DNA of 64,000 nt from an uncultured Cellulosilyticum sp. GTDB taxonomy: Bacteria; Bacillota; Clostridia; Lachnospirales; Cellulosilyticaceae. The stretch lies in NCBI GenBank assembly GCA_934725855.1, contig CAKVCL010000018.1:1-64000 (forward strand), written 5' to 3'. The notes under the pieces are model-generated. The model did not search any database and was not told the origin of the DNA. It saw only the letters and a program-made list of their open reading frames with translations. Shown piece by piece: positions 38,636 to 61,703 of this stretch. Each line of letters begins with the position of its first letter. Positions within the stretch are counted from its first letter, which is position 1. A program made the translations under genes and the position numbers.

Positions 38636-40009
38636 TTGAAACAGAATATCGCACGTTTGGTGATATTAGGTGTACTCATCGGACTATGTTTAGGGCAAAC
38701 GATAAGGTTATGGCTTGGCGATGTGTCAGGCCATAATTTTTTTGCACCACAGGTCATAAATGATGAGATGAACCATACAGAACCTAAACAAATATGGTGT
38801 AACATAAGTAGCAAGATTTATAAGATTACTAGTAGTAGTGAGAAGGAGGACTTACTAGAAGAACTAATGGGAGGGCTTAGGCAATCTCATTTAAAGTTAG
38901 AAAAATTATCAAATGAGGAATATACAAAGCTTTTATATGAAACGCAGGGGATTATTTATGAATATGGCGAAGCCCTTGGTATAGGACAAATCATGGGACA
39001 GATAGTCAACGTCAATAGTGAGAAATACACGGATAAAGACATTAAAGAAATCTATATTGATTTAAGCCTTGCAGATGCTTCTAAAACATATATTTACTTT
39101 ATTGATGAGAAAGATCAGATTAAAAGTAAGTTTAGTATAAGTAGTCAATTAATAAATGGGACAGAAGTGGTGGATTTATATAAAGAAAATGGCGGGAGTT
39201 ATAAAGAATACCGAGCAAGCATGACTACGAATAACTTATCGGGATTGTTTGAAAGCAATGTTTTTTATCCTGTAGTAGATGAAAAAACACCCGTATCAGG
39301 AAAGTTGTTTAAATTTGTGCCAGTCATTGAGAACGGAGAAGAAATAAGTTTAGAAAATTACGTTAATGAGCTCTTTAAAAATCCAAATTATAAAACAAAG
39401 AGCATACTTTTAAATGGCGATATCGCTTTTAGTGATAACTTAAGTATCAGTGTCATTTATAGGAAACAAGGCGTATTAGAGTTTGAAAGAACCCTTTTAG
39501 ATGATGTTGATAAGTTAAATAGTGCTGAGCGCCTTAATAAAATCAATTATTTTATAAAGACGTCAGGGGCTATTCCAGAGCATTTAAAAAAAGGACTTTA
39601 CTTAGAAAACAGCCTATATAATGAAGAAACAGGTGAATATTGTTATCGTTTTGGATTTAGACATGAAAATGGAGAAATTATTTGGCTGAGTGCAGGGGTA
39701 AAAGCTCAATTAGGCATAGCGGCTTTCTTAGAATTAAAAATCAAAAATAGTGAGATTACAAGTGGAAAATGGCTGATGCGAATACCTGAAAACATAGAAG
39801 AAGAACAAGAAATCACAATGACCAGTCTAGAAGCTTACGAAGCAATCTATAAAAAAGCAGGTGTTAATGAAGAAAGTGGATTTTTGCTAAAAGATTTAGA
39901 ATGTGCCTATGTGGTCTCAGACATTAACAAAGCGGTAGATTTTAATTGGGTAGGGATTTATGAGGGACAGCCTATCTTAGCAATAGAAAAAAATGACAAT
40001 AGGGAATGA
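38636..40009 (+). CDS. yycH: YycH-like regulator of WalK
   Basis: Predicted 457-residue membrane-anchored protein starting with TTG at 38636, 5 nt after GGTGGGGG. One N-terminal membrane segment (IARLVILGVLIGLCLGQTIR) precedes a large extracellular part, as in YycH (about 455 residues in Bacillus subtilis), which with YycI binds and inhibits WalK. Recognition depends on position after walRK, topology and size; residue similarity to Bacillus YycH is low by eye. NGEEISLENYVNELFKNPNY and the following beta strands fit the YycH fold segment ENY-x-x-x-[LF]F. The terminator at 39994 overlaps its stop codon. Confidence 0.7.
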   Translation: MKQNIARLVILGVLIGLCLGQTIRLWLGDVSGHNFFAPQVINDEMNHTEPKQIWCNISSKIYKITSSSEKEDLLEELMGGLRQSHLKLEKLSNEEYTKLLYETQGIIYEYGEALGIGQIMGQIVNVNSEKYTDKDIKEIYIDLSLADASKTYIYFIDEKDQIKSKFSISSQLINGTEVVDLYKENGGSYKEYRASMTTNNLSGLFESNVFYPVVDEKTPVSGKLFKFVPVIENGEEISLENYVNELFKNPNYKTKSILLNGDIAFSDNLSISVIYRKQGVLEFERTLLDDVDKLNSAERLNKINYFIKTSGAIPEHLKKGLYLENSLYNEETGEYCYRFGFRHENGEIIWLSAGVKAQLGIAAFLELKIKNSEITSGKWLMRIPENIEEEQEITMTSLEAYEAIYKKAGVNEESGFLLKDLECAYVVSDINKAVDFNWVGIYEGQPILAIEKNDNRE

Positions 40010-40031
40010 CTTCCCATTGTCTTTTTTTTTT
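39994..40031 (+). terminator. Terminator or attenuator between yycH and yycI
   Basis: GACAATAGGGAA pairs with TTCCCATTGTC (one bulge), a 4-nt loop, then ten Ts. It overlaps the yycH stop codon and is followed 38 nt later by yycI, so it should lower yycI expression relative to walRK and yycH unless read through. Confidence 0.8.
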
Positions 40032-40068
40032 GTTATATTTATAGGAAGAATACCATGGGGGGAAAAGA

Positions 40069-40953
40069 ATGAATGGTAAAAAGATATTAAATGAACTGAT
40101 TAAGTTATTCGTTATAATTAATATCGTCCTTTTTGTAATTAACTATGCCTTTAGAGGAAACCAATATGTCATGAGCCAAGAACGGGTAAAAAACATAACG
40201 AAATTATTGGGAGAAAAAGGTATTCATATAAAAACAGAGTTAATGAGAGGGTTTGCCCCTAAAAGTTCTGGAAATTTAACTTTTATTGGAAGTGGTATAG
40301 CCGTTAGAGATGAGATAGGCAAGCACTTTTTTAAGGAGAACTGGGCAAATGTCAAACGTTCCACTACGCCTAGTGAGAAAAATATAGGAGGAACGATAAA
40401 CTATTATATGCTAGGAGATGAGGTGCTTAGTTTTGACTATAATGAGCTAAGTTATTCTAATAAAAAAGTCAGTTTGCTTGGAAAGAAGCCCACATTAGAA
40501 AAAGCAAAAGGGATGTGCAATAAACTCATTGAGCGTATCGGGGATAAGTGGAGTAAACAAGAATATTTTATTTTTGGAGAGTCCTATGAGAATTATTGGA
40601 AAATAACCTATTATCCATTATTAGAAGATCTGCCCGTTATGGATAGTTATCTAGAATTCTATGTAAATAGTGAAGGCGTTATGAAGGCACAAATGTACTT
40701 AGCAGATATTCAGCTGGAAAGTGAAATAAAAAAGGATATTTATGCAGTAGATTTGGTATTATTCGGAATAGAGGACGATATACTAGAAAGTGGCTACTTG
40801 GAAATTGAAAAAGTGACCCTATGCTATAAACAAGAAGAAAATGAAGAGAATGTTTTGGGACAGAAGATTATACCCGCATATAAAGTTGAAATTAAAGGTT
40901 TAGAAGAACCACTATTTGTTAATGCTTATACTAACAAACGATTAAATGGATAG
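40069..40953 (+). CDS. yycI: YycI-like regulator of WalK
   Basis: Predicted 294-residue membrane protein, ATG after GGGGGGAAAAGA. A single N-terminal membrane segment (LFVIINIVLFVINYAFRG, about 13-30) and an extracellular domain of 260 residues match YycI (about 280), partner of YycH in holding WalK inactive. C-terminal KIIPAYKVEIKGLEEPLFVNAYTNKRLNG resembles the conserved final strand of the YycH/YycI domain. Identification rests on order, topology and size. A strong hairpin separates it from yycH. Confidence 0.7.
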   Translation: MNGKKILNELIKLFVIINIVLFVINYAFRGNQYVMSQERVKNITKLLGEKGIHIKTELMRGFAPKSSGNLTFIGSGIAVRDEIGKHFFKENWANVKRSTTPSEKNIGGTINYYMLGDEVLSFDYNELSYSNKKVSLLGKKPTLEKAKGMCNKLIERIGDKWSKQEYFIFGESYENYWKITYYPLLEDLPVMDSYLEFYVNSEGVMKAQMYLADIQLESEIKKDIYAVDLVLFGIEDDILESGYLEIEKVTLCYKQEENEENVLGQKIIPAYKVEIKGLEEPLFVNAYTNKRLNG

Positions 40954-41053: not shown

Positions 41054-42304
41054 TTGAGTGAGTTGTATATAAGAGGTGGACGACGTCTGGTAGGCGATGT
41101 AACGATTAATGGAGCAAAAAATGCAGCAGTAGCCATTTTACCTGCAGCTCTTTTAGTAGATGGAATAAGTGAGATTGAGAATTTACCCGATATAGATGAT
41201 GTGGCAAAGTTAAAAAGAGCCATGGAGGACTTAGGTGCTGTGGTTCAGATGAAGGACAAACATACCCTTAAGGTGGATGGTTCTACGATTTATGACTATA
41301 AAGCAGTCAATGACTATGTGGGAAATATTAGGGCTTCTTACTACTTAATAGGTGCCCTTTTAGGACGCTTTAAAAAAGCAGAAGTAGCCATGCCAGGAGG
41401 CTGTAACTTTGGTGTCAGACCGATTGACCAGCATATTAAAGGCTTTGAAGCACTTGGTGCGACTGTTAAAGTCGAAAATGGTGTTATTAAAGCTTATGCA
41501 GAAAAGCTAGTAGGAACAAAGATTTATATGGACGTGGTGAGTGTGGGTGCCACTATCAATGTGATGCTAGCTGCCGTGCTTGCAGAAGGTACTACCATTA
41601 TTGAAAATGCAGCTAAAGAACCCCATGTAGTCGATGTGGCAAACTACTTAAATATGATGGGTGCTAATATTAAAGGTGCAGGAACCGATGTTATTCGTAT
41701 TAAAGGCGTAGAGCATTTAAAAGGTGGTAAATATGCCACAGTACCTGACCAAATCGAAGCAGGAACCTATATGATTGCCGCTGCGATTACAGCAGGCGAT
41801 GTGATTGTTAGAAATATTATTCCAGAACATATGTATTCTGTGACCTTAAAAATGATGGAAATGGGTGTTGGGATTGAAGAAGGCGATGACTACATCCGTG
41901 TAGTAGGTCCACAAGTCTTAAAGTGCGCCAATGTCAAAACCCTTCCACACCCAGGTTTTCCAACAGACCTTCAACCTCAAATGGCAGTCCTGTTAAGCGT
42001 GGCTGAAGGCACCAGCACCATGATTGAAGGCGTATGGGACAACCGCTTCCAATATGTGGACCAGCTCAAGAAAATAGGCGCTAAAATCAAAGTAGAGGGC
42101 CGCATGGCAGTCATCGAAGGCACCCCAAAACTAACAGGAGCCAAAGTAAGCGCCACCGACCTAAGAGCCGGAGCCGCTCTAGTAATAGCCGCCCTAAGAG
42201 CAGAAGGCGAAACCATCATCAAAAACGTGAAATATATCGATAGAGGCTATGAAGCCATCGAAGAAAAATTAACAGCATTAGGCGCAGATATTGTAAGAAA
42301 ATAG
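41054..42304 (+). CDS. murA: UDP-N-acetylglucosamine 1-carboxyvinyltransferase (MurA)
   Basis: Predicted 416-residue cytoplasmic enzyme joining phosphoenolpyruvate to UDP-GlcNAc, first committed step of peptidoglycan synthesis. Starts with TTG at 41054, 8 nt after GAGGTG. Conserved [16 protein letters not shown] at the N-terminus, the reactive-loop Cys at about 117 in [10 protein letters not shown] (target of fosfomycin), [33 protein letters not shown] and [15 protein letters not shown] are present. Length is usual. The Cys is intact, so fosfomycin sensitivity is expected. Placed after the WalRK group, in keeping with wall synthesis. Codon use becomes C/G-richer at 41900-42240 than in the neighbours. 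Confidence 0.96.
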
Positions 42305-43733: not shown

Positions 43734-44510
43734 ATGCAGACCATAAGTGAACTTTATAGTTATAGAGAAATGATAAGAAGCTTAGTACGTAAAGAACTAA
43801 GAGGGCGTTATAAAGGGTCTATTCTTGGGTTTTTATGGACATTTATTAATCCTTTACTTCAATTAATGGTATATACGGTTGTATTTGCAACTATTTTAAA
43901 ATCAGATATTGAAAAATATTACCTGTTCTTATTTGTAGCATTGATTCCTTGGATTTTTTTCTCTACATCATTAACAGGTGGATCAAGTTGTATTATTAAT
44001 CAGAAAGACATGGTAAAAAAAATATATTTTCCTAGACAGGTTATGCCTATAGCGTTTGTTTCTACTTGTTTTGTGAATATGTTATTATGTTTTATCGTTA
44101 TATTTATTGTAATTGGTTTTGCAGGCATAGGAATAAATGTTAAAGCGCTTTTATGTTTGCCTATTGTTATGTTTGTACAATTTATTTTAGCATTAGGTGT
44201 AGCAATGTTATCGTCTGCTATTACAGTTTATTTTAGGGATTTAGAACATATTTTGGGCATTGTAGCAATGGCATGGCAATATTTAACACCTGTTATGTAT
44301 TCTATAGATAATGTACCAGATCAGTATCTGCCTTTATTTATGACAAATCCTATGACACCAATTATTCAGGCTTATAGAGAAATACTTTATTATAAGCAAG
44401 TGCCAAAGTTAGGAACCTTAATACATGCTTTATTATTAGGAATCGTGGTTTTAATTATTGGGTGGCTTGTATTTCAAAGATTACAAAAGCACTTTGCGGA
44501 GGAGTTATAA
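43734..44510 (+). CDS. wzm: ABC-2 type glycan exporter permease (Wzm/TagG type)
   Basis: Predicted 258-residue membrane protein with six hydrophobic segments. LVRKELRGRYKGSILGFLWT, the conserved coupling region KELxxRYKxSxLGxLW of Wzm/TagG permeases, and FINPLLQLMVYTVVFATIL are clear, as is PVMYSIDNVPDQYLPLFMTN. It exports a lipid-linked glycan through the cytoplasmic membrane with the ATPase starting at its last base (TAATG overlap). Such ABC-exported glycans are completed inside the cell, unlike Wzx/Wzy routes. Confidence 0.93.
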   Translation: MQTISELYSYREMIRSLVRKELRGRYKGSILGFLWTFINPLLQLMVYTVVFATILKSDIEKYYLFLFVALIPWIFFSTSLTGGSSCIINQKDMVKKIYFPRQVMPIAFVSTCFVNMLLCFIVIFIVIGFAGIGINVKALLCLPIVMFVQFILALGVAMLSSAITVYFRDLEHILGIVAMAWQYLTPVMYSIDNVPDQYLPLFMTNPMTPIIQAYREILYYKQVPKLGTLIHALLLGIVVLIIGWLVFQRLQKHFAEEL

Positions 44511-45826
44511 TGTCAGTTATTAAGGTCGATAATATACATAAAAAGTTTAAAATTTATTATGACAAAGGGCAGAGTTTTAAAGAAAAGATTTTATTTAAAA
44601 ATCGAAATAGATATGAAGAAAGATGGGTTCTAAAAGGAATTAGTTTTGAAGTAGACAAAGGTGAAGCTATTGGACTTATAGGTGAAAATGGTTGCGGTAA
44701 AAGTACGTTATTAAAGCTTATGTCTAAAATTATGTATCCTGATGAAGGAACTATAGAAATCAATGGTCGAGTGTCTAGTTTGATTGAATTAGGAGCAGGT
44801 TTTCATCCAGATATGAGTGGACGTGAAAATATTTATACTAATGCAGCTATTTTTGGACTAACTAAAAAGGAAATTGATGAACGATTAGAGTCGATTATAG
44901 AGTTCTCTGAGTTAGAGGAGTTTATTGATAATCCAGTAAGAACTTATTCATCTGGAATGTATATGAGGTTAGCCTTTTCAGTAGCAATTAATGTAGATGC
45001 AGATGTTTTGCTTATTGATGAAATTCTAGCAGTGGGTGATGCAAATTTCCAAGCCAAATGCTTTGACAAGCTTCGTGAGTTAAAGGCATCAGGCGTAACG
45101 ATTGTTATCGTCACCCATGACACAGGGACTATTGAAAGATTCTGCTCTAAAGCAGTATGGATCAATGAGGGTGAAGTTAGGGCCTATGGCAATTGTTTAA
45201 TGGTGGTAGACTCTTATTTAAGCTATATGAATGAGAAGCGTATTGAAAGTATCGCAGCACTTAATGAAAAACACCATCATCAAGAAGAAAAAGTAGAGGA
45301 ACAAGTAAATGGTTCACAGACTCAGCTAGAAGAAAAACAAGATAAAGTTGAAGAGACATTAGAAGTTGCGGACTCTAGCGAAGAGGAAAAAATAGATTAT
45401 GATGCAAATCGTTTTGGGCTTAAATACATTGAGATTACAAAAGCGGTAATGAAAAACCAAAAAGATAAAGAGACAGGCGTATTTAGAGCAGGTGAAGACG
45501 TTACAGTAGAGATACATTATAAAGTAAATAAACCTTTGACAGAATATAATTTTGGAGTTGGTTTTTATACTTTAGAAAAGCAGTGTGTGACAGGTATTAA
45601 TACGGCATTAGATCAGGTGCGTGTACCACATACGAAGAATGAAGGCTGTGTTAAGTTCAAAATCCATGATTTAAATTTACTTACAGGAAAGTATATTTTG
45701 CATGTAGCTATTGTTGACATGAATGGAACACCTATGGATTTCTATAGAGATTACAGTCATTTTGATGTGATTTCAAGCGATCGTTCGATAGGAGTTATAT
45801 CAATGAATCATGAGTGGGAGATTTAG
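44510..45826 (+). CDS. wzt: ABC glycan exporter ATPase with C-terminal carbohydrate-binding domain (Wzt)
   Basis: Predicted 438-residue ATPase starting at 44510, overlapping the permease stop (TAATG); the open frame reaches back to 44462 inside it. Walker A GENGCGKSTLLKLM (about 63-76), signature YSSGMYMRLAFSVAINV, Walker B DVLLIDEILAVGD, and H-loop VTHDTGTI. A Glu/Lys-rich linker (about 250-295) joins a C-terminal beta-sandwich (about 300-438, FRAGEDVTVEIHYKVNKPLT, DMNGTPMDFYRDYSHFDVIS), the Wzt_C type that recognises the non-reducing-end cap of a finished chain. Methylated caps are the known ligands in Wzt systems, which fits the two methyltransferase genes that follow. Confidence 0.93.
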   Translation: MSVIKVDNIHKKFKIYYDKGQSFKEKILFKNRNRYEERWVLKGISFEVDKGEAIGLIGENGCGKSTLLKLMSKIMYPDEGTIEINGRVSSLIELGAGFHPDMSGRENIYTNAAIFGLTKKEIDERLESIIEFSELEEFIDNPVRTYSSGMYMRLAFSVAINVDADVLLIDEILAVGDANFQAKCFDKLRELKASGVTIVIVTHDTGTIERFCSKAVWINEGEVRAYGNCLMVVDSYLSYMNEKRIESIAALNEKHHHQEEKVEEQVNGSQTQLEEKQDKVEETLEVADSSEEEKIDYDANRFGLKYIEITKAVMKNQKDKETGVFRAGEDVTVEIHYKVNKPLTEYNFGVGFYTLEKQCVTGINTALDQVRVPHTKNEGCVKFKIHDLNLLTGKYILHVAIVDMNGTPMDFYRDYSHFDVISSDRSIGVISMNHEWEI

Positions 45827-51367: not shown

Positions 51368-53362
51368 ATGCAAAAAGTAAGAAATTATATTAAAAATGAG
51401 TGGAAAACATATGAAATAGTATTGTTTGTTATAATGTGTTTAATGTTCTTTAATGTAATGTGTATTAATGTTTTTAAATTGGATGATTTCTTAAATTCAG
51501 ATATAGTAGCTGAGATGAGTTATGTAAAAACTGTGTGTGAACAAAAAAGTTTAATACCTTTTGATTGGGTGAACTCTCAAGAACTATTTATTAATAGACC
51601 AGTATACATTTCAGCACCGTTATATTTAATCACTGAGAATTTATTTTTATCATATAAGATAACTATTGTGATAACAACAATTCTTATAATTATAACTCTA
51701 GGATATTTCCTTAAACAAGTTGGCATAAGACGTAAGAATATATTATTAGCAATAATATGTTTGTTAGGATTGTTTTGTAATGAGATAACAAGAACAATAT
51801 TTATTTTTTTGAATGCTTATGCACTATTTCCAGTTGCTATATTTATAACGTTTGGATATTATATTAAGAACAATATTAAGCATGAAGAAATAAGAGGCTT
51901 TGTGATTAAAAGTATATTAATATATGTATTAGCATTTATTATGGGGATTAGTGGACCAAGAATGGCTATAGTTTTATACTTACCTATAGTAGGTATTGAG
52001 TTTTTTGAATCGATGTTAAGGACATGGAAAAATAAAAAGATTAGTGTAGAAGTGCATACCATATACAATGGATTAGGACTGCTCGTTATAAATTGTACTG
52101 GTTTTTTAACATATAAGATATTTATAAAGAACGCAATAGAACATAATGATATCAGTAACTTTCAAGTTCTAGATATAAAGCAGATAATATCAAATATACC
52201 TAACTTACTTGCAGCTATGCTTAACGCTATAGGGATATATGGAAATGTTGATTTACTTTCACTTAAAGGCATAGACTTTATAGCTAAAGGATTATTATTA
52301 ATTATAGTTATTTTACTTGGCTTTTATATCACGAAAAAATCAGATGAAGTTATAAAAAAAATTATGTTGTTTTTTGGAAGTTCATTAATGCTTGTTGGAA
52401 TATACACTCTTTTAACGAGTGATGTATTTAGTGAAAGATATTATTTTATGATATTATTCTTGGTCGTTACTATTATAGCTATTAGTATGCAAAAATTAGA
52501 AAAGACAAATAAGATATTTGAAGTACTAATTTCAAGTATATTGTTTATTATGGTAATGGTTAATTTGAAGGCCAATTTTATACCTTTATATAAAACAGAA
52601 GGAAATCAAATCCAAAAGCAAATTGCTAACTATTTAATAGAGAATGATTATAAAAGGGCGTATGCTACATATTGGAATGCAGATATTCTAAAAGGGCTAA
52701 CTAATGCTCAAGTGGAAACAGGCCATTTTACAGGTGAGGGATTTAATCCTTACTTATGGTTAACTAATAAAAGTTTATATAGTGAACAGAAAGAGTTTAT
52801 AAAAACTGCAATAGTATTAACAGATCAAGAAGAAAATGCTATATTAGCATTGGATAACTATGATAGTGTAGTATTGCAACATATGGATAAAGTTGCAAAA
52901 ATACAAGAATATAATATATATCATACGGAAAATAATCCAGCAGTACAGGCAGTGTTACCTAGAAAAAATGGTGAGTGCATATTTTATGACTTTACTAAGA
53001 GATATGCACAAAGAGATGATGCAATAGTAAAAGTTAATTATGAAGAAAAATATATTGAGGCTGATTCAATTGGAGGCTTTTTAGTTTGGGGACCGGGTAC
53101 TAATACTCATACTGGGACATATAGTTTTAAATTGAATTATAAAATAATTCAAAGTATAGGTGATGATGTAGGTTATTTTGAAGTTGCTTTAAATGGTGGA
53201 AGTATACAGAAGGCAGTAAAGAATATTGAAAGTGGAAATACATCTATAACAATAGATAATGTTACATTTGAAAATAACACGGATACAGTTGAATATAGAA
53301 TTTGGACTCAACCAGGTGTAACAATTCAATTACAATCAATCGAAATAGTAAAGGTAGGGTGA
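51368..53362 (+). CDS. Polytopic membrane protein, GT-C/Gtr-type glycosyltransferase candidate
   Basis: Predicted 664-residue protein with about ten to twelve hydrophobic segments in residues 15-400 and an extracellular-looking C-terminal domain of about 250 residues. ATG after AAAAAAGGAGTAAGTCG. The first loop contains LDDFLNSDIVAEMSYV, with acidic residues where GT-C enzymes place their catalytic DxD/ExD motif. It sits 6 nt before a GtrB-like gene and near a GtrA gene, the arrangement of three-component side-branch glycosylation systems, so it is the probable transferase that moves a sugar from undecaprenyl phosphate onto the glycan outside the cell. Family not recognised with certainty. 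Strongly AT-rich compared with neighbours. Confidence 0.65.
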   Translation: MQKVRNYIKNEWKTYEIVLFVIMCLMFFNVMCINVFKLDDFLNSDIVAEMSYVKTVCEQKSLIPFDWVNSQELFINRPVYISAPLYLITENLFLSYKITIVITTILIIITLGYFLKQVGIRRKNILLAIICLLGLFCNEITRTIFIFLNAYALFPVAIFITFGYYIKNNIKHEEIRGFVIKSILIYVLAFIMGISGPRMAIVLYLPIVGIEFFESMLRTWKNKKISVEVHTIYNGLGLLVINCTGFLTYKIFIKNAIEHNDISNFQVLDIKQIISNIPNLLAAMLNAIGIYGNVDLLSLKGIDFIAKGLLLIIVILLGFYITKKSDEVIKKIMLFFGSSLMLVGIYTLLTSDVFSERYYFMILFLVVTIIAISMQKLEKTNKIFEVLISSILFIMVMVNLKANFIPLYKTEGNQIQKQIANYLIENDYKRAYATYWNADILKGLTNAQVETGHFTGEGFNPYLWLTNKSLYSEQKEFIKTAIVLTDQEENAILALDNYDSVVLQHMDKVAKIQEYNIYHTENNPAVQAVLPRKNGECIFYDFTKRYAQRDDAIVKVNYEEKYIEADSIGGFLVWGPGTNTHTGTYSFKLNYKIIQSIGDDVGYFEVALNGGSIQKAVKNIESGNTSITIDNVTFENNTDTVEYRIWTQPGVTIQLQSIEIVKVG

Positions 53363-53367
53363 TAATA

Positions 53368-54324
53368 GTGAAAAAAATTAGTATAGTTATCCCGTGTTGG
53401 AGTGAAGAAAAAAGTATAGAATTAATGTATCAAAGAATTAAAAAAGTATTTGATGAAAAATTAGCTAATTATGATTATGAGATAATATTTGTAGATGACT
53501 GCTCTCCAGATAATACTTGGACAGAGATACAAAAGGTATGTAATATTGACAAGAGAGTAAAAGGAGTTCTCAATGCTAGGAACTTTGGATTTATCAGAAA
53601 TGTATATGCTACATTAAAATATGGTAGTGGGGATGCAACTTTTATGCTATTTGGGGATCTACAAGATCCACCAGAATTAATTCCAGAGTTTGTTAAAAAG
53701 TGGGAAGAAGGCTATAAAGTAGTTATAGGTCAAAAAACAAAAAGTGATGAGAGTAAAGTATTATATTTCTGCAGAAGTTTATATTACAAAGTAATTGGCA
53801 CATTATCTTCAACAAAGCAAATTCAACATTTTAATGGATATGGTTTATATGACAAAGCCTTTATCGAGGTGATAAGTCAATTGGATGATCCTTCACCATA
53901 TTTAAAAGGGATTGTTGCAGAATTTGCAATGAAACAATATATTATCCAATACGATCAAGCAGAGAGTAATAGAGGAAAGTCTGGTTCTAACTTCTTCAAA
54001 AACTATGATGTAGCAATGTTAGGAATCACATCTTATACAAAAACATTAATGAGAATAGCTACATTTATAGGTGCAATCTTAGGATTTGCAAGTATATTAT
54101 TTGCATTCTTTATATTCCTCAGTAAGGTCTTTCATTGGAATGATTATCCTATGGGAACTGCAACTATGATAATTGGTATATTCTTAATGGGGGCAATTCA
54201 AATGTTCTTTATAGGAATATTAGGTGAATACATATTAAGTATTAATACTAGAATGATGAAGAGACCACTAGTTGTAATAGAAAAAAAATTGAATTTTGAT
54301 GAGGAAACAGTAAATGAAAGATAA
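53368..54324 (+). CDS. Bactoprenol glycosyltransferase (GtrB/DPM1-like GT2)
   Basis: Predicted 318-residue membrane-attached GT2; start GTG at 53368 rather than the overlapping upstream ATG. GT-A motifs IVIPCWSEEKSIELMYQRIK, EIIFVDDCSPDNTWTE and FGDLQDPPELIPEFVKKWEE, the QDPP signature of dolichyl/undecaprenyl-phosphate sugar synthases. Two C-terminal membrane helices (about 230-255 and 267-292) and NGYGLYDKAFIEVISQLDDP complete the GtrB type. It transfers a sugar from a nucleotide donor to undecaprenyl phosphate inside the cell for flipping by GtrA (59358). Overlaps the next gene by 11 nt. Confidence 0.9.
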   Translation: MKKISIVIPCWSEEKSIELMYQRIKKVFDEKLANYDYEIIFVDDCSPDNTWTEIQKVCNIDKRVKGVLNARNFGFIRNVYATLKYGSGDATFMLFGDLQDPPELIPEFVKKWEEGYKVVIGQKTKSDESKVLYFCRSLYYKVIGTLSSTKQIQHFNGYGLYDKAFIEVISQLDDPSPYLKGIVAEFAMKQYIIQYDQAESNRGKSGSNFFKNYDVAMLGITSYTKTLMRIATFIGAILGFASILFAFFIFLSKVFHWNDYPMGTATMIIGIFLMGAIQMFFIGILGEYILSINTRMMKRPLVVIEKKLNFDEETVNER

Positions 54325-55705
54325 GGTAAAAGAAATTATCCATTCATGGGCTAAGAAAGAAGGAAATGTAAATACAATTCAAGAAATTCTTAGCTGGGTG
54401 GAACAGCTTAATCAATCATTAAAGGTTAATATTGTTCCTAATACATTAAGCGGAAGTAACTTTTGGTTTTATGATGAAGATAAAGGCTGTATAACTAATA
54501 AAAATAATAGCTTTTTTACAATAGAGGGGTTAAAGATAACAGGTAAAGATAGAAAGGTTATTGAACAGCCAGTTATTATGCAAAATGAAATTGGGTATCT
54601 TGGAATTATTTGCAAAGAAATCGATGGTGTTTTGAATTTTTTAATGCAGGCTAAAATTGAGCCAGGCAACGTAAATAAAATCCAGATATCTCCGACTATA
54701 CAAGCCACAAAAAGTAATTTTACGAGAAAGCATGGTGGTAAATCACCTGCTTATCTCGATTATTTTTTGAATGCAAATAAGCACACAATTATAGTAGACC
54801 AGATTCAGTCAGAGCAGTCATCAAGATTTTATAAAAAACGTAATCGTAATACGATCATAAAAGTAGATGAGAATATAGAAGTATTACCAAGTCATAAATG
54901 GATGACATTAGGACAAATTAAACAATTAATGAAGTATGAAAATCTTGTTAATATGGATACAAGAACAGTGCTTTCATGTATCCCTTTTGTTTATGATAAT
55001 TTATCAGAAAATGACTTAAAGGAAATAGAAGAATTATTTAATGATAAAGCCCTATTTAATTCTATTTTTAGAACGAAAGGAAAAAACAACTTTACACCTA
55101 TTTATAAATATATCAATGACTATAAGATGTTTAACGATAATCAAGTAGAGCTGGTACGCTTAGATGAATTAGAAACATGGGAAATGAATGATGAAGGGAT
55201 TAAGTGTAAATATTCTTATAGCTTTAGTGTTATTTATTGCGATATCGAAGTAGAAGGACGAGAAGTAACTAAATGGACACAACCTTTATTCAAGGCAGAG
55301 GGCCTTGCAACATTTGGTCTACTTACAACCGTGGAGCATAATATAAGAAAATTTTTGGTTAAATGCAGACATGAAGTAGGCTGTTTTGACCAAATGGAAT
55401 TAGGACCTTCTGTGCAACGAGAAGCGGTAGATGAAGAAAAAGTAATCGATTGTGTAACAGAAGTATTTGATAAGCATTTAGCTGAAAATAAAGGCGTTTT
55501 ATATAATGTTATTTTGTCCGAAGAGGGCGGACGATTTTATCATGAACAGAACCATAATATGATAGTTGAGATAGATCAAGCAGAAATCCTTGAATTGCCA
55601 GAAGGATATTTTTGGGTAGATTATAGAACGCTTAATCAACTAGTTCAAGTCAATAACTGTTTAAATATTCAACTTAGAAATTTATTATCTTTACTGGAGG
55701 TTTAA
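54314..55705 (+). CDS. NDP-hexose 2,3-dehydratase
   Basis: Predicted 463-residue enzyme of the EvaA/TylCVI/SpnO family (PF03559), which removes the C-2 hydroxyl of NDP-4-keto-6-deoxyglucose to give a 3,4-diketo-2,6-dideoxy sugar. Two homologous halves, as in the family: first half GSNFWFYDEDK, AKIEPGNVNKIQISPTIQAT, SNFTRKHGGKSPAYLDYF and IQSEQSSRFYKKRNRN; second half TTVEHNIRKFLVKCRHEVGC, FDQMELGPSVQRE and SEEGGRFYHEQNHNMIVEID. ATG 54314 overlaps the GtrB stop. Normally found in actinomycete antibiotic clusters; here in a surface-glycan operon. All key motifs are intact by eye. Product is used by the next gene. Confidence 0.92.
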   Translation: MKDKVKEIIHSWAKKEGNVNTIQEILSWVEQLNQSLKVNIVPNTLSGSNFWFYDEDKGCITNKNNSFFTIEGLKITGKDRKVIEQPVIMQNEIGYLGIICKEIDGVLNFLMQAKIEPGNVNKIQISPTIQATKSNFTRKHGGKSPAYLDYFLNANKHTIIVDQIQSEQSSRFYKKRNRNTIIKVDENIEVLPSHKWMTLGQIKQLMKYENLVNMDTRTVLSCIPFVYDNLSENDLKEIEELFNDKALFNSIFRTKGKNNFTPIYKYINDYKMFNDNQVELVRLDELETWEMNDEGIKCKYSYSFSVIYCDIEVEGREVTKWTQPLFKAEGLATFGLLTTVEHNIRKFLVKCRHEVGCFDQMELGPSVQREAVDEEKVIDCVTEVFDKHLAENKGVLYNVILSEEGGRFYHEQNHNMIVEIDQAEILELPEGYFWVDYRTLNQLVQVNNCLNIQLRNLLSLLEV

Positions 55706-56674
55706 TTGAAGATGAACAAATTAAGACTTGGTATATTAGGAACTTCCGATATTGCATTTAGAAGATTTTTACCTGCATTAAGTAAATCAGAGGATTTTGA
55801 GTATGCAGGAGTAGCATCAAGAAGTATAGAAAAAACGGAAAAATTTGTAGAAACTTATGGTGGAAAAGGCTATAGTAGTTATGATAAGCTTTTAGAAGAT
55901 CAAAACATTGATGTAGTTTACTTACCATTACCACCAAGCTTACATTTTGAGTGGGCTAAGAAAGCTCTAGAAAATGGTAAACATATTTTAATGGAAAAGC
56001 CTTTTACGACAAGTAAAGAAGAGACTTTCGAACTTATTAAAATAGCAAAAGAAAAAGGGTTAGCGGTATTTGAAAACTATATGTTTCAATATCATAGCCA
56101 GTTAAAGACTATATTAAAAATGATCAGTGATGGTGAAGTAGGAGAAATTAGGGAGTTTAGAATTGGATTTGGATTCCCTATGAGAAGTGCAGATGATTTT
56201 AGATATAACAAACAATTAGGTGGAGGAGCATTACTGGATTGTGGTGGTTATACTATCAAATTAGCCAATCTGTTACTAGGTGAAACAGCAAAGGTAATGT
56301 ATTCTAAGCTTAACCATAATTCACAATTTGATGTGGATTTATTTGGTTCAGCAACATTGCAGAATGAAGAGGGCATAGTAGCACAAGTTGGTTTTGGAAT
56401 GGATAATACCTACAAGTGTGAACTTGAAGTTTGGGGAAGTAAGGCAAGTATTATTGCATCAAGGATTTTCACAGCAGGGGCAGGTTTTGAGCCTGAATTA
56501 GTCATAAAAACTTCAACAGATAGTAAGAGCGTTAAATTAGCTGAAGATGATCAATTCCTTAATGCAATTACTGATTTTGCGAAATGTATTAAGGATGAGG
56601 AACATAGAAATCAAATCATGGAAGAAATAAAAATACAGTCTATTAATGTGGATAAGATTATTAAAAATAATTAA
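55706..56674 (+). CDS. Gfo/Idh/MocA oxidoreductase, probable NDP-hexose 3-ketoreductase
   Basis: Predicted 322-residue NAD(P)-dependent oxidoreductase, start TTG 55706 or ATG 55712 behind GGAGGT. Rossmann motif LGILGTSDIAFRRFLPAL, the family motif HILMEKPFTTSKEE, and the GGGALLDCGGYTIKLANLLL catalytic region (Gfo/Idh/MocA). It follows the 2,3-dehydratase by one base, the partner order seen in EvaA/EvaE-type and SpnO/SpnN pathways, where this family reduces the C-3 ketone. Substrate assignment therefore comes from context. Length is normal. Confidence 0.88.
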   Translation: MKMNKLRLGILGTSDIAFRRFLPALSKSEDFEYAGVASRSIEKTEKFVETYGGKGYSSYDKLLEDQNIDVVYLPLPPSLHFEWAKKALENGKHILMEKPFTTSKEETFELIKIAKEKGLAVFENYMFQYHSQLKTILKMISDGEVGEIREFRIGFGFPMRSADDFRYNKQLGGGALLDCGGYTIKLANLLLGETAKVMYSKLNHNSQFDVDLFGSATLQNEEGIVAQVGFGMDNTYKCELEVWGSKASIIASRIFTAGAGFEPELVIKTSTDSKSVKLAEDDQFLNAITDFAKCIKDEEHRNQIMEEIKIQSINVDKIIKNN

Positions 56675-56689
56675 GGAGACGATACGAAG

Positions 56690-57253
56690 ATGAAAATTAC
56701 AGAATTAGCATTAGAAGGAGCAAAAATAATTGAACCTAAAGTATTCACAGATAATCGTGGCTATAGCTGTGAAACTCATTCAAAGAAAACATTAATTGAG
56801 AATGGTATTCCTTTTGACTTTGTTTTAGATTATGAAGCAATGAATTTAAAAAAGAATACAATCAGAGGAATTCACTTCCAAAATAACCCTCATGCTCAAA
56901 CAAAATTGGTTAGAGTTTTACGTGGAGAAATCTATGATGTTATTGTAGACTTACGAAAAGATTCACCAACCTATAAAAAATGGATTGGTCATACAATTTC
57001 AGCTGAAAATCAAAAACAAATCCTTATTCCTAATGGTTTTGGACATGCCTTTATTACTAAAGAAGATAACACAGTTGTATTATATAAATTTGATGACTAT
57101 TATGATGGCAGCCTTGTTAGAGCAATTAGATGGGATGACCCAGAGATAGGGATTGATTGGGGTATTGAGAATCCAATTCTATCTCCATCAGATGAGAAAG
57201 CACCATTTTTAAAAGATAGTGATGTTAATTTTACTATGGAGTTGAATAAATAA
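56690..57253 (+). CDS. dTDP-4-dehydro-deoxyhexose 3,5- or 5-epimerase (RmlC-like)
   Basis: Predicted 187-residue cupin enzyme. Features of RmlC/EvaD: FTDNRGYSCETHSKK, catalytic His in NTIRGIHFQNNPHAQTKLVR, YDVIVDLRKDSPTYKKW, PNGFGHAFITKEDNTVV with YKFDDYYDGS, and RWDDPEIGIDWG carrying the catalytic Asp. Converts the D-series 4-keto sugar to the L-series. Whether it epimerises both C-3 and C-5 cannot be told. Located in the dideoxyhexose block, 15 nt after the 3-ketoreductase. Confidence 0.9.
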   Translation: MKITELALEGAKIIEPKVFTDNRGYSCETHSKKTLIENGIPFDFVLDYEAMNLKKNTIRGIHFQNNPHAQTKLVRVLRGEIYDVIVDLRKDSPTYKKWIGHTISAENQKQILIPNGFGHAFITKEDNTVVLYKFDDYYDGSLVRAIRWDDPEIGIDWGIENPILSPSDEKAPFLKDSDVNFTMELNK

Positions 57254-57254
57254 T

Positions 57255-58169
57255 ATGAAAAAGATAGTAGTAACTGGTGCTAGTGGATTTATTGGAAAAG
57301 CTCTCTGTGAAAGATTACTTTCAGAGGGAAATTATGTGTATGCAATTGTTAGGAATAAAGAGAAACTTAAAGATCTATCAAGATTTGAGAACTTAAACGT
57401 TATTGAATTAGAGATGAAAGATTATAACAACCTATCAAGTAAAGTTAATGATGAGATTGATACAATGTTTCATTTTGCTTGGCAGGATTCAGCTGGGCCT
57501 AATAGAATGAATTACGGTATTCAAATTCCTCAGATCCAATATACGTGTGATACTGTAATGCAAGCTCATGAAATGAAATGTAAAAAATTTATTTTTGCGG
57601 GATCCATATCATATTTTATGCATAAACATTACCTAAATAATAAGGAAAATGCTTGTAGACAGACTTGTTTATATGGGACTGCGAAAAATGCAGCAAATAT
57701 GTTTTGCAGAACAATATGTCATAATTTAAATATGAAATACAATGATGTTTTATTTACTAATATTTTTGGAGTTGGAGATTATAGTATGAGGTCTACCAAT
57801 GTCATTATTAATAAATTAATTAATAATGAGAAGCCAGTATTAGTAGAAGGAGAGTATAAATATGATTGGTTTTATATTGACAATGCAGTAGAAGCATTGC
57901 TTGCTGTTGAAAAGCAAGGGGTAGATTTTAAGAGCTATTATATTGGAAATAAAGAAATTACAACATTAAAAGAGATATTAATTAATGTTGGACAAATCTT
58001 AAATCCAGATATGGAATTAGAATTTGGTGGCTTTAATGATACTACTCATGCAGATTATACTCAAATAGATACAAGTGCATTGTATGAAGACACCAATTAT
58101 AAAGAAAAGGTTAGTTTTAAGGAAGCTATATTAAGAACGGCTGAATGGGTAAGAGGGCTAAAGATATAA
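57255..58169 (+). CDS. SDR-family NDP-sugar 4-ketoreductase or epimerase
   Basis: Predicted 304-residue NAD(P)-dependent enzyme with nucleotide-binding GASGFIGKALCERLL at the N-terminus and an active-site YGTAK (YxxxK) following FIFAGSISYFM. The C-terminal part (EYKYDWFYIDNAVEALLAVE, YYIGNKEITTLKEIL) fits extended SDRs acting on nucleotide sugars. No rmlD-type gene is elsewhere in the cluster, so this is the best candidate for the final C-4 reduction of the 2,6-dideoxyhexose. It is unusually Cys-rich (QTCLYG, MFCRTICHN). It starts 2 nt after the epimerase stop. Confidence 0.85.
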   Translation: MKKIVVTGASGFIGKALCERLLSEGNYVYAIVRNKEKLKDLSRFENLNVIELEMKDYNNLSSKVNDEIDTMFHFAWQDSAGPNRMNYGIQIPQIQYTCDTVMQAHEMKCKKFIFAGSISYFMHKHYLNNKENACRQTCLYGTAKNAANMFCRTICHNLNMKYNDVLFTNIFGVGDYSMRSTNVIINKLINNEKPVLVEGEYKYDWFYIDNAVEALLAVEKQGVDFKSYYIGNKEITTLKEILINVGQILNPDMELEFGGFNDTTHADYTQIDTSALYEDTNYKEKVSFKEAILRTAEWVRGLKI

Positions 58170-58183
58170 AGGAGAAATTTGAT

Positions 58184-59368
58184 ATGCAAGATATAGTAGT
58201 TGTCGGAAGTGGTTTTTCTGGAAGTATCTTAGCAAGAAGGATCGCTGAAGAGTTGGGACAAGAAGTGCTTGTAGTAGAGAAACGAAGTCACATCGCAGGA
58301 AATATGTATGATGAGATAGATGAAAATGGTATATTAGTACAAAAATATGGACCTCATTATCTTAATACTAATAAGTATTTTATCATTGAATATTTAATGA
58401 AGTATAGTGAACTATTTAAACATAGTGTAAAAATGTACAGTTATATTGATAACAATTATGTGCGATTACCATTTAACTTTGAAACTGTACAACAGTTAGT
58501 GGGAAGTAAAAAGGCTGAAAGTTTATTAGAAAAGCTTAGAAGTTCATTTTCAGGTCGTGATAGAGTTCCAGTTTTAGAACTTGTTAATCACACAGATTCA
58601 GATATTAAAGCATATGGAGAATTGTTATTTGAAAAGGCATATAAGACCTATACTTCAAAACAATGGGGAATAGGTGTTGATAAAATTGATAAGTATGTTC
58701 TTGATAGAGTTCCAATGGCAATGAATTATGATGAGAGATATCTAAATAAAGATTTTCAGTATTTGCCTAATGAAGGATTCACAAAACTCTTTGAAAAAAT
58801 GCTGGATCATCCTAATATTGAAATTCAGCTAAACACTGATGCACTTGAGCATATAGAGTTTGACGAAGATAAGGCTAAAATAAAATATCAAGGACATGAA
58901 ATTAAGTGCCTAATATACACTGGGGCAATTGATGAATTATTTGGTTTGAAATATGGAGATTTACCTTATCGCTCTTTAGATATTCAATATGAATATCTAC
59001 AAGTTGATAGTATACTTCCAGCAGAAATTGTGTCATATCCACAAGCAAAAGGATATACTAGAAAAACAGAGTATAAGAAATTGATGCTCGATAATAGTAA
59101 GGTTAAGGGGTCTGTAGTAGCTACAGAATATCCATTACAGTATGATAGAAATGCAGAGAGAGGCAATACACCATATTATCCAGTTGTAACAGAGGAAAGT
59201 AAGCAAATTTATAGTAAGTATATCGAAGAGGTAAAAAAATATAATAATATTTTCTTATGTGGTAGACTAGCTGAGTTTAAATATTATAATATGGATATTT
59301 GCATAGAACATGCTTTAGAATACTTTAATGATATTAAAAAATACTTGGAGCAACAAAATGCAATCTAA
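58184..59368 (+). CDS. glf: UDP-galactopyranose mutase
   Basis: Predicted 394-residue flavoenzyme converting UDP-galactopyranose to UDP-galactofuranose. ATG 58184 lies 8 nt after AAGGAGA; an earlier frame start at 58145 is inside the previous gene. FAD motif VVVGSGFSGSILARRIAEEL, VEKRSHIAGNMYDE, QKYGPHYLNT, YTSKQWGIGVDKIDKY, and the active-site ending FLCGRLAEFKYYNMDICIEH. Indicates galactofuranose in the surface glycan. The donor UDP-Gal must be supplied elsewhere in the genome. Overlaps the next gene by 11 nt. Confidence 0.93.
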   Translation: MQDIVVVGSGFSGSILARRIAEELGQEVLVVEKRSHIAGNMYDEIDENGILVQKYGPHYLNTNKYFIIEYLMKYSELFKHSVKMYSYIDNNYVRLPFNFETVQQLVGSKKAESLLEKLRSSFSGRDRVPVLELVNHTDSDIKAYGELLFEKAYKTYTSKQWGIGVDKIDKYVLDRVPMAMNYDERYLNKDFQYLPNEGFTKLFEKMLDHPNIEIQLNTDALEHIEFDEDKAKIKYQGHEIKCLIYTGAIDELFGLKYGDLPYRSLDIQYEYLQVDSILPAEIVSYPQAKGYTRKTEYKKLMLDNSKVKGSVVATEYPLQYDRNAERGNTPYYPVVTEESKQIYSKYIEEVKKYNNIFLCGRLAEFKYYNMDICIEHALEYFNDIKKYLEQQNAI

Positions 59369-59756
59369 AATAAGATTATTATTAACAAAGTACGAAGAAA
59401 CAATATTATATTTGTTTTTTGGGATGTTAACAGTTGCGGTTAATACAGTAATATATTTGGGACTAGCAAAATTAGAAATTAATGATTTAATAGCAAATAC
59501 GATAGCATTTTTTCTAGCTGTTCAATTTGCTTATATTACAAATACTAAATATGTATTTAAAGCTAGTTTTACAAAGAAAAATTTCTTCCAGTTTTGGGGG
59601 ATGCGTATTGGAACGATATTAATTGATAATTTAGGATTACTTATTTTGCTTAAAGTTGGATGTAGCCAATTTATTTCAAAAGTAGTAGTAAACATTATTA
59701 TTATTATAATTAATTATGTCTGTAGTAAATTTTATATATATAAAAAAAGGAGTTAA
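59358..59756 (+). CDS. GtrA-family lipid-linked sugar flippase
   Basis: Predicted 132-residue membrane protein with four membrane segments. ATG 59358 lies inside the end of glf, 8 nt after GGAG. Conserved [37 protein letters not shown] and the terminal [14 protein letters not shown] are typical of GtrA (PF04138), proposed to flip undecaprenyl-phosphate-linked sugar. It is the partner of the GtrB-like gene at 53368; here they are separated by six sugar-synthesis genes. Confidence 0.9.
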
Positions 59757-59761
59757 TTGGT

Positions 59762-60631
59762 ATGAAGGGAATTATTTTAGCAGGAGGATCTGGAACGAGA
59801 TTGTATCCTATAACAAAGTCTATTTCAAAACAGATTTTGCCAATATATGATAAGCCGATGATTTATTATCCATTATCTACTCTGATGTTATCTGGAATAA
59901 AAGATATCCTTATCATTTCTACGCCGAGAGACCTTCCTATATATGAAGAGTTATTGGGAACAGGGGAGGAAATTGGATTAAATATTCAATATGCTGTGCA
60001 AGAACAACCTAATGGATTAGCTGAGGCATTTATTATCGGCGAACACTTTATTGGAAAAGATAAAGTAGCTTTAGTCTTAGGTGATAATATTTTCTATGGC
60101 AGAGGATTTGGGCTTGTTTTAAATAATGCTGCATCATTAGAAGAAGGAGCAAGAATATTTGGCTACTATGTAAGTAATCCAACAGAATTCGGTGTAGTAG
60201 AATTTGATCGTGATGGCAATGTTTTATCATTAGAAGAGAAGCCAGCTCAGCCAAAATCAAATTATGCAATTCCAGGACTCTATTTCTATGATAATGATGT
60301 TGTTGAGATTGCAAAAACAATTGAGCCATCAGCTAGAGGAGAACTTGAGATTACTTCTGTGAATAATGAATATCTTAGAAGAAGCAAGCTTAAAGTTGAA
60401 CTTTTTGGACGTGGTATGGCGTGGTTAGATACTGGAACACATGAAGGTCTTATTGAAGCAGCAAACTTTGTGCAAACTGTGCAAAAGAGGCAAGGTCTTT
60501 ATGTGGCATGTCTTGAAGAGATTGCGTATAGAAAAGGGTACATAGATAAAGAACAACTACTTAAATTGGCACAACCAATGTTAAAAACAGATTATGGTAA
60601 ATATTTAATGCGTATTGCAAATGAGTACTAA
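59762..60631 (+). CDS. rfbA: Glucose-1-phosphate thymidylyltransferase
   Basis: Predicted 289-residue enzyme making dTDP-glucose. ATG after AAAAAAGGAGTTAATTGGT. Full RmlA signature: [70 protein letters not shown] and [20 protein letters not shown]. Family length. First step of the dTDP-sugar pathway in this cluster; the 4,6-dehydratase follows. Confidence 0.96.
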
Positions 60632-60650
60632 GAAGAGAAGAGGGAAGAAT

Positions 60651-61703
60651 ATGAAAAATATATTAGTTACAGGTGGAGCAGGATTTATTGGTTCAAACTT
60701 CGTAAGACATATGTTATCTACATATGAGTATCACATTATTAACTTGGATGCACTAACTTATGCAGGTAATTTAGAGAACTTAACAGATATTGAAGAACAT
60801 CCTAATTATACTTTTGTAAAAGGTGATATTAGAGATAGAGCTTTATTGGACGAGTTATTTACTAAATATGCGATCGATACAGTAGTAAATTTTGCAGCTG
60901 AATCTCATGTAGATAGAAGTATTGAAAATCCTGAGATTTTCTTAACGACTAATGTTTTAGGAACACAAGCGTTACTAGACACAGCAAAAAAGCATTGGAA
61001 AGTGGACCCAGAGGATAAATACTCTAGAGAATATAAAGAAGGTGTAAAGTACTTACAAGTATCAACTGATGAAGTTTATGGTTCATTAGGAAAAGAAGGA
61101 ATGTTTGAAGAAACAACTCCACTTGCTCCAAATAGTCCTTACTCAGCATCTAAGACAAGTGCTGATTTAGTAGTAAGAGCTTATTATGAAACATATGGAA
61201 TGCCAATTAATATTACACGTTGCTCTAATAATTATGGCCCTTATCAATTTCCTGAAAAATTAATCCCCTTAATGATTAACAATTGCTTAAATGATCATGA
61301 ACTTCCAGTTTATGGTGATGGTATGCAAATTCGTGACTGGTTACATGTAAAAGATCACTGTACAGGTATTGATACGGTTTTACATAAAGGCAAAGTTGGT
61401 GAAGTATATAATATTGGTGGAAACAATGAAAAGGCTAATATTGAAATCGTTAAATTGATTATCAAAGAATTAGGAAAATCAGAAGACCTTATAAAATATG
61501 TAAAAGATAGACCAGGCCATGATAGACGTTATGCAATCAATAATAGCAAAATTACAAGAGAGTTAGGATGGAGTCCATCTTATACTTTTGAACAAGGGAT
61601 TCAAGAAACGATTCAATGGTACCTTGAGCATAAAGAATGGATTGAGCATATCGTTACAGGTAATTATGAGAATTATTATAATGAAATGTATAAAAATGCG
61701 TAA
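60651..61703 (+). CDS. rfbB: dTDP-glucose 4,6-dehydratase
   Basis: Predicted 350-residue SDR enzyme producing dTDP-4-keto-6-deoxyglucose. ATG 60651 after AGAGGGAAGAAT; the frame overlaps rfbA upstream. GGAGFIGSNFVRHML (NAD site), NFAAESHVDRSIENPEIFL, STDEVYGSLGKEGMFEE with catalytic Asp-Glu, and YSASKTSADL (YxxxK). Typical length. Its product is the common entry to dTDP-rhamnose and to the 2,6-dideoxy route of the genes at 54314-58169. A terminator follows at 61724. Confidence 0.97.
   Translation: MKNILVTGGAGFIGSNFVRHMLSTYEYHIINLDALTYAGNLENLTDIEEHPNYTFVKGDIRDRALLDELFTKYAIDTVVNFAAESHVDRSIENPEIFLTTNVLGTQALLDTAKKHWKVDPEDKYSREYKEGVKYLQVSTDEVYGSLGKEGMFEETTPLAPNSPYSASKTSADLVVRAYYETYGMPINITRCSNNYGPYQFPEKLIPLMINNCLNDHELPVYGDGMQIRDWLHVKDHCTGIDTVLHKGKVGEVYNIGGNNEKANIEIVKLIIKELGKSEDLIKYVKDRPGHDRRYAINNSKITRELGWSPSYTFEQGIQETIQWYLEHKEWIEHIVTGNYENYYNEMYKNA

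Follow-up and report, generated by a model that had tools for sequence, protein, structure and literature searches.

The pathway to dTDP-L-digitoxose (dTDP, deoxythymidine diphosphate) in kijanimicin biosynthesis, attributed to KijB1, KijD10, KijD11, and KijC2, reportedly employs a 2,3-dehydratase, a KijD10-type 3-ketoreductase, a 5-epimerase, and a 4-ketoreductase and is said to serve antibiotic tailoring in actinomycetes; that cluster is not known to contain a Glf-type mutase or genes for export to the surface. A Glf-family pyranose/furanose mutase for a dTDP-6-deoxysugar, Fcf2, is said to act in the dTDP-D-fucofuranose pathway of Escherichia coli O52, a Gram-negative O-antigen pathway in which the 2-hydroxyl is kept; its likeness to our locus is one of described function. 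In Campylobacter jejuni HS:41, as outlined in an excerpt of PMC12369002, a nucleotidyltransferase, a 4,6-dehydratase, an RmlC-like epimerase, a 4-reductase, and a flavin adenine dinucleotide (FAD)-dependent mutase act on cytidine diphosphate (CDP) sugars, the purified enzymes yielding CDP-fucofuranose when the epimerase is omitted and CDP-6-deoxy-L-altrofuranose when it is present; the epimerase decides between the D- and L-series, and a single mutase, indifferent to C5, serves both products. Here, we analyzed 64,000 nucleotides of an uncultured Cellulosilyticum sp. (assembly GCA_934725855.1, contig CAKVCL010000018.1, positions 1 to 64,000; the window), in which a gene of the Glf family stands amid six genes for a dTDP-2,6-dideoxyhexose. 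We consider it fairly probable that this Glf protein acts as a mutase between the pyranose and furanose forms of a dTDP-2,6-dideoxyhexose and that the block makes a furanose 2,6-dideoxyhexose for a surface glycan.

By analogy, the clostridial dTDP block is the HS:41 scheme with a predicted 2,3-dehydratase and 3-ketoreductase added, a likeness of gene sets and not of mutase sequences; as described in that excerpt, the HS:41 pathway uses CDP instead of dTDP, has neither of the two additional enzymes, and leaves the 2-hydroxyl in place (PMC12369002). An initial annotation of the window knew of no 2-deoxy sugar described in clostridial S-layer or wall glycans. Among the papers listed in our searches of open-license literature, there was none on a clostridial 2,6-dideoxyhexose glycan or a 2,6-dideoxyhexofuranose mutase, and the excerpt of a gut-polysaccharide review (PMC12413058) contains the word digitoxose zero times. 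On bacterial surfaces in general, such a sugar is not new, as an excerpt of PMC6120980 reports digitoxose, a 2,6-dideoxyhexose, in the S-layer O-glycan of Tannerella forsythia, a member of the Bacteroidota; the resemblance to our locus lies in the kind of sugar.

The deoxysugar cassette and its linkage to Glf

All genes named in the initial annotation were present in the list of open reading frames (ORFs) at their assigned positions on the forward (+) strand. These ORFs, together with those for Glf, GtrA, GtrB, and the upstream membrane protein, were scanned against Pfam and NCBIfam, and five of them also against PDB sequences. The family scores of the cassette enzymes lie far above chance, and sequence strongly supports the original proposal that the six enzymes make up a dTDP-2,6-dideoxyhexose pathway. 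The protein encoded at 54314..55705 matched PF03559 as two repeats (421.6 bits against a cut-off of 25), EvaA (4j7g) was the sole PDB sequence that it matched (E 1.5e-76), and the NCBIfam scan gave no matching model for it. Mutating E139 and E190 abolishes EvaA activity, according to an excerpt of the review PMC8987622. These residues align with E116 and E167 of the window protein, both of which are invariant across the 25 aligned sequences, the window's own included. The protein thus passes both sequence checks named in the initial annotation, which would have counted a failure against PF03559 or missing substrate-site residues as a refutation. Its identity as a member of the EvaA family of dTDP-4-keto-6-deoxyglucose 2,3-dehydratases is unambiguous, and the corresponding activity is predicted. 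The next gene (55706..56674) encodes a Gfo/Idh/MocA protein, a KijD10-like putative dTDP-sugar 3-ketoreductase, with KijD10 as its best PDB match (E 4.9e-69) and E 1.5e-30 for the next different protein, also of the Gfo/Idh/MocA family. The alignment to KijD10 is full-length and retains Lys98 and Tyr182, which we take to be the counterparts of the active Lys and Tyr of KijD10 (K102 and Y186).

Downstream follow an RmlC-like 5- or 3,5-epimerase (56690..57253; TIGR01221 rmlC, 190.7 bits against a cut-off of 155.75; PDB 3ryk, E 1.9e-54), which points to an L-series product, and a short-chain dehydrogenase/reductase (SDR; 57255..58169). The latter belongs to the SDR/epimerase family (PF01370, 95 bits), and the motifs YxxxK and GxxGxxG can be read directly in its sequence; among the 25 of 52 models listed for it, there was neither an equivalog above its cut-off nor an rmlD model. 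It is probably a reductase of undefined stereochemistry, and we propose it as the 4-ketoreductase. Beyond Glf lie the genes for RmlA, the glucose-1-phosphate thymidylyltransferase (59762..60631; TIGR01207, 488.7 bits), and RmlB, the dTDP-glucose 4,6-dehydratase (60615..61703; TIGR01181, 509.3 bits), both above their cut-offs. A scan for sigma-70 promoters stayed near chance, with 88 sites against 77.2 expected.

Of 7996 candidates that were scored, 6360 were dehydratase homologs; a scan of GTDB genomes yielded 241 dehydratase loci, of which 80 were kept. By their titles, the kept loci are nearly all from Bacillota, with one each from Bacteroides (L032) and Succinivibrio (L078) and a few without a group name. 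In three draws of genomes, each centered on a genome reached via these loci or their relatives, PF03559 occurred in 5 of 291 (class draw), 10 of 345 (order draw), and 3 of 87 genomes (family draw). The distribution of the 2,3-dehydratase is patchy but widespread. The initial annotation had noted a pathway established in actinomycetes in an anaerobic Firmicute; with 241 loci in one collection, it is widespread in Bacillota and not rare. A search of plasmids returned 85 records, 84 of them with at least 80% query coverage (75 of those from Streptomyces), all below 60% identity, and no clostridial plasmid copy. Two 2,3-dehydratase homologs with 59% identity (P0051 and P0055) are labeled Clostridioides difficile and Clostridioides sp.

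With the window proteins as queries, a 3-ketoreductase gene was found within 9 kb of the dehydratase gene in 78 of the 80 loci. This pairing and the retention of both catalytic Glu residues in the dehydratase speak against a reading in which L-rhamnose is the product of RmlA, RmlB, and the RmlC-like enzyme, with the 2,3-dehydratase and the 3-ketoreductase left over without a function. The epimerase passing the rmlC cut-off would fit such a reading; however, in agreement with the initial annotation, no rmlD was recognized within the scanned part of the window, and we considered and rejected this reading as barely credible.

In one type of locus, the order 2,3-dehydratase, 3-ketoreductase, epimerase, 4-ketoreductase, Glf, (GtrA), RmlA, RmlB is nearly fixed. 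Counting only the 55 loci whose downstream sequence reached 6.5 kb or more (the 25 shorter ones being left out), Glf at more than 400 bits was found in 20 of 22 loci with both epimerase and 4-ketoreductase versus 3 of the 33 remaining loci (Fisher p 6.8e-10, without correction for relatedness). In two of the three exceptions (L029 and L039), and likewise in the shorter locus L015, a single other SDR gene replaces the epimerase and 4-ketoreductase genes between the 3-ketoreductase and Glf. Thus, Glf persists in cassettes where the epimerase is gone, and these sister cassettes probably make a D-series sugar. In the same 55 loci, Glf and a DegT aminotransferase nearly exclude each other: 22 have Glf only, 25 DegT only, 1 both (L067), and 7 neither. 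Loci without Glf mostly carry the aminotransferase, and one (L070) carries a C-methyltransferase. Since a mutase needs a free 4-hydroxyl for closure of the five-membered ring, this near-exclusion matches a ring-contracting role of Glf.

Glf and the dehydratase also co-occurred at the genome level. In the class draw, PF03559 was found in three of four genomes with cassette-type Glf (G006, G020, and G240) versus 1 of 54 genomes with other Glf (G113). In the fourth, G264, Glf is a fragment at a contig end beside a 4-ketoreductase, an epimerase, and a further 4-ketoreductase gene, and no PF03559 dehydratase was found in the genome. In the order draw, all seven genomes with cassette-type Glf, one of them with a broken copy (G010), had PF03559 versus 1 of 99 genomes with other Glf only, the exception being a fragment (G618). 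In the family draw, PF03559 and cassette-type Glf occurred in exactly the same three genomes, and none of the nine genomes with other Glf had the domain. In some genomes of the class and order draws, at most 6 or 5 candidates were scored per genome, weaker matches (below about 200 bits) were assigned by their score, and a 45-residue Glf fragment in G046 was left untyped. The broken copy in G010 (contig 26, 7385-8227; the genome of L019) matches cassette-type Glf in two parts with an internal stretch missing, and a 2,3-dehydratase gene is located about 2.5 kb away; the copy is probably what is left of a decayed second cassette.

Clade and residue pattern of the cassette-linked Glf

The window Glf occupies 58184..59368 on the + strand within a long ORF (58145-59368). 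Its start is probably the ATG at 58184, not 58145, because the first 10 residues of the long form were modeled with a predicted local distance difference test score (pLDDT) below 50 and AGGAG precedes the ATG at 58184; residues are numbered in the long ORF, N74 and S297 being those of the window protein. The predicted structure has the fold of UDP-galactopyranose mutase (UGM; UDP, uridine diphosphate), with a template modeling (TM) score of 0.80 to 3hdq. In Klebsiella pneumoniae numbering, H60, Y155, W160, R174, Y185, R280, Y314, and Y349 are presumably the catalytic residues of UGM. All of these are retained in the alignment, and His71, Tyr169, Trp174, Arg188, Tyr199, Arg306, Tyr345, and Tyr380 are invariant in all 120 best homologs of the window Glf. 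Two otherwise near-fixed UGM positions are altered, His74 to Asn and Asn297 to Ser, in columns that align with His63 and Asn270 of the K. pneumoniae chain; Asn74 was found in all 120 best homologs and Ser297 in 119 of them.

A tree of 85 Glf proteins was built without ORFs or matches under about 320-330 residues and without identical or contained copies. The 29 proteins with more than 450 bits to the window Glf (itself included) formed one clade with support 100/99. As this group was chosen by score, its monophyly is partly expected, and the weight lies in the location of these copies: besides the window protein, 27 of the 28 members are encoded in 2,3-dehydratase loci, and L111 lies beside 4-ketoreductase genes. 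Together with L155, L106, L156, L157, and L167, the latter on a long branch, the clade forms a larger one, again with support 100/99. Contigs of these CDP-type relatives encode a CDP-glucose 4,6-dehydratase (TIGR02622, 4 of 4) and a glucose-1-phosphate cytidylyltransferase (TIGR02623, 3 of 4), as well as SDR genes. Curated models support the CDP typing of L155, L106, L157, and L156 (the last by its dehydratase only); L176, L177, and L181 were typed by best match alone. At least four cassette genomes hold a second Glf with His at residue 74 (L107-L110).

Three clostridial CDP-6-deoxysugar operons (L168, L170, and L171) include a Glf-family gene, as in the C. jejuni fucofuranose pathway. In a further CDP-type glycan cluster (L169; G358 contig 48), two Glf genes are adjacent, one in an ORF of 812 residues with the ordinary His/Asn and the other with His/Ala, possibly for two furanoses in one glycan.

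Residues 74 and 297 were picked after a scan of all columns, twelve of which separated the groups, and were tallied in 112 distinct complete Glf proteins. The 29 cassette-type proteins had Asn/Ser in 26 cases and Thr/Ser, Ser/Ser, and Tyr/Ala once each, with Ser297 in 28 of 29. The seven CDP-type proteins had His/Ala (5), His/Cys (1), and Val/Val (1). The remaining 76 had His/Asn (74), Val/Asn (1), and Asn/Asn (1), that is, Asn297 throughout. Among 64 non-redundant Glf copies without a deoxysugar gene in short flanks of about 1.5 kb, RmlA and RmlB not being counted as such, 62 had His/Asn; the two exceptions are a cassette-type fragment (L105) and L156, with its CDP-glucose dehydratase further away. 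The UDP-N-acetylgalactosamine mutase of C. jejuni (4mo2), a Glf-family enzyme that acts on a 2-acetamido sugar, is likewise altered in the column of N74, with Arg instead of Asn, and has Asn in the 297 column. This Arg, Arg59 in C. jejuni, reportedly governs the preference for the C2 acetamido group. The overall pattern fits a position of residue 74 near C2 and of residue 297 near C6 in the predicted active site, with few evolutionary events behind it. Non-Asn297 has so far been confined to groups linked to deoxysugar genes, which makes residue 297 the cleaner mark.

Several observations weigh against a deoxysugar substrate or reduce the independence of the evidence. The window Glf passes the NCBI cut-off for UGM (TIGR00031, 356.9 against 303.75 bits). 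Three cassette copies have Ser, Thr, or Tyr at residue 74 (L044, L055, and L080), L080 also having Ala297; the CDP-type L155 is Val/Val, and the ordinary His/Asn is found in L167, although its cluster is of the CDP type. The pattern at residue 74 is further broken by two copies in the remaining group, L227 (Asn/Asn) and L225 (Val/Asn), and the proposed placement of this residue at C2 draws on reported work on Arg59 of the C. jejuni enzyme. Parsimony gave 6 changes at residue 74 on the 85-protein tree, and most of the residue changes trace back to one event each at the base of a clade, so that the counts are not independent. Two loci, L070 and L071, carry epimerase and 4-ketoreductase genes without Glf. 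Most cassette-type genomes of the draws had first been reached by way of the dehydratase (G475 and G478 share the coordinates of L063 and L075, and G006, G010, G011, G012, G015, and G020 belonged to the set from the outset), which leaves G240, G264, and G484 as the new ones; in G240 and G484, Glf and the dehydratase are encoded on different contigs.

The neighbors of L225 and L227 that were scanned (the L227 contig spans 7.6 kb) encode glycosyltransferases, a polymerase-like protein, and the like, and no deoxysugar gene was among them. Because L227 has Asn74 without deoxysugar genes seen nearby, Asn74 alone is not a mark of a 2-deoxy substrate, and residue 74 as a strict code for C2, which we had entertained, is weakened by both copies. 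These two Glf genes with Asn74 and Val74 lie in glycan clusters (L236 for L227 and L237 for L225), and their substrates may also not be UDP-galactose.

The main alternative is that the 2,6-dideoxyhexose is used as a pyranose and that Glf is an ordinary UGM, the glycan also containing galactofuranose. It draws on the TIGR00031 match, the UGM fold, the conserved catalytic residues, and the variation of one of the two changed residues in Glf proteins without deoxysugar genes seen nearby. Against it stand the separate clade of the linked Glf, which is tied to this pathway; residue 297, which is Asn in all 76 proteins outside the cassette and CDP-type groups and Ser in 28 of 29 cassette copies; the second Glf with His74 in at least four cassette genomes; and the near absence of Glf from aminotransferase cassettes. 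We regard this alternative as unlikely, yet as one to be kept in mind. The initial annotation had listed Glf as a separate function next to the deoxysugar genes; the conserved block, the clade, and the residues instead place it within the pathway, and this "galactose mutase" probably completes deoxysugar synthesis as its final enzyme, with a dTDP-2,6-dideoxyhexose as its inferred substrate.

Proposed pathway and transfer to the surface glycan

In the steps strongly supported by sequence, RmlA and RmlB would provide dTDP-4-keto-6-deoxyglucose, from which the 2,3-dehydratase would take off the 2-hydroxyl, followed by reduction of C3 by the KijD10-like enzyme. With good support, the RmlC-like enzyme would then invert C5 to give the L-series, and the SDR would reduce C4, leaving the free 4-hydroxyl required for ring contraction. 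Comparison across loci suggests that Glf would contract the ring of the resulting dTDP-2,6-dideoxyhexose to the furanose via reduced FAD. Support is weaker for the lipid-carrier step, in which GtrB might load the sugar onto undecaprenyl phosphate, GtrA might flip the lipid-linked sugar, and a GT-C protein might add it outside the membrane to a polymer exported by Wzm/Wzt.

The genes for this last part flank the cassette. The GT-C type membrane glycosyltransferase (51368..53362, + strand), with a C-terminal carbohydrate-binding-like domain, has a GT-C fold and could take a GtrC-like role. It is followed by a GtrB-like polyprenyl-phosphate glycosyltransferase of family GT2 (53302..54324, + strand; PF00535, 85 bits), the long form of which begins within the upstream gene and overlaps the 2,3-dehydratase gene by 11 bases. 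Scores of GtrB against curated models are below their cut-offs (PgfS, 190.1 against 500; PRK10714, 117.8 against 529), indicating a related protein of unnamed subtype. The GtrA-type flippase gene (59328..59756, + strand; PF04138, 59 bits against a cut-off of 26.1) lies between Glf and RmlA. Thus, GtrA, GtrB, and a GT-C protein, the three components of Gtr glycosylation, are all encoded in the window. In the 43 loci with both flanks, the 37 others being left out, GtrB and GtrA were concordant in presence or absence in 41; however, both occurred in only 7 of the 18 Glf-bearing loci of this set, which weighs against the proposed scheme.

Further upstream, a Wzm and Wzt ATP-binding cassette exporter is encoded at 43734..45826 on the + strand, Wzm matching PF01061 and Wzt matching PF00005 with the C-terminal glycan-binding domain Wzt_C (PF14524), and the window also holds GT4 enzymes and a ManC-type enzyme. 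The initial annotation was right to place the 2-deoxy sugar genes inside a surface-glycan cluster. This setting bears on the question of whether the 2,6-dideoxyhexose might decorate a secreted small molecule, such as an antibiotic-like glycoside, as in actinomycetes. The characterized 2,3-dehydratases named in the excerpt of PMC8987622 stem from antibiotic pathways, but the export, Gtr, GT-C, GT4, and ManC-type genes speak against it, and no polyketide or peptide synthase was found among the proteins scanned at 38636-62951, a set that includes nothing upstream of 38636 and neither of the ORFs at 41054 and 63140. We considered this explanation and rejected it as very improbable.

A broader proposal, possible rather than probable in our view, is that the cassette-linked proteins are a hitherto unrecognized Glf clade of gut clostridia making dTDP-2,6-dideoxyhexofuranoses and that, in a subset, GtrB loads undecaprenyl phosphate with the labile furanose, which a GT-C enzyme then uses outside the cytoplasm, in parallel to decaprenyl-phosphoryl-arabinofuranose. 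In mycobacteria, the furanose is a pentose and is formed at the lipid-linked stage, and AftA, AftB, and AftD differ, with a sequence identity below 10%. If the proposal held, residue 74 would mostly reflect the C2 substituent (His for 2-OH, Arg for 2-NHAc, and Asn for 2-H) and residue 297 the state of C6 (Asn for 6-OH; Ala, Ser, Cys, or Val for 6-deoxy). The surfaces of many gut Clostridia would then bear an acid-labile 2-deoxy furanose, which could have been missed, since strong-acid hydrolysis in routine sugar analysis would destroy it. The named homologs of the window Glf among the matches listed carry the label "UDP-galactopyranose mutase," and in that case it would be a mistake to predict galactofuranose from such labels. 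Glf enzymes with deoxysugar substrates could be flagged by the residue pattern, with position 297 as its most telling part.

Other genes of the window

At 38636-40953, two proteins without a Pfam match are encoded upstream of the gene at 41054, which by eye resembles murA. Within the glycan cluster, a DDE transposase gene (PF01609 and PF13612; 47605-48543) lies between two genes for FkbM methyltransferases (PF05050; 45810-47483 and 48673-49896). Both FkbM genes contain 63-base tandem repeats, in 2.8 and 3.3 copies, which encode a unit of 21 residues preceding the methyltransferase domain; the unit is similar in both genes and possibly forms a coiled coil of variable length.

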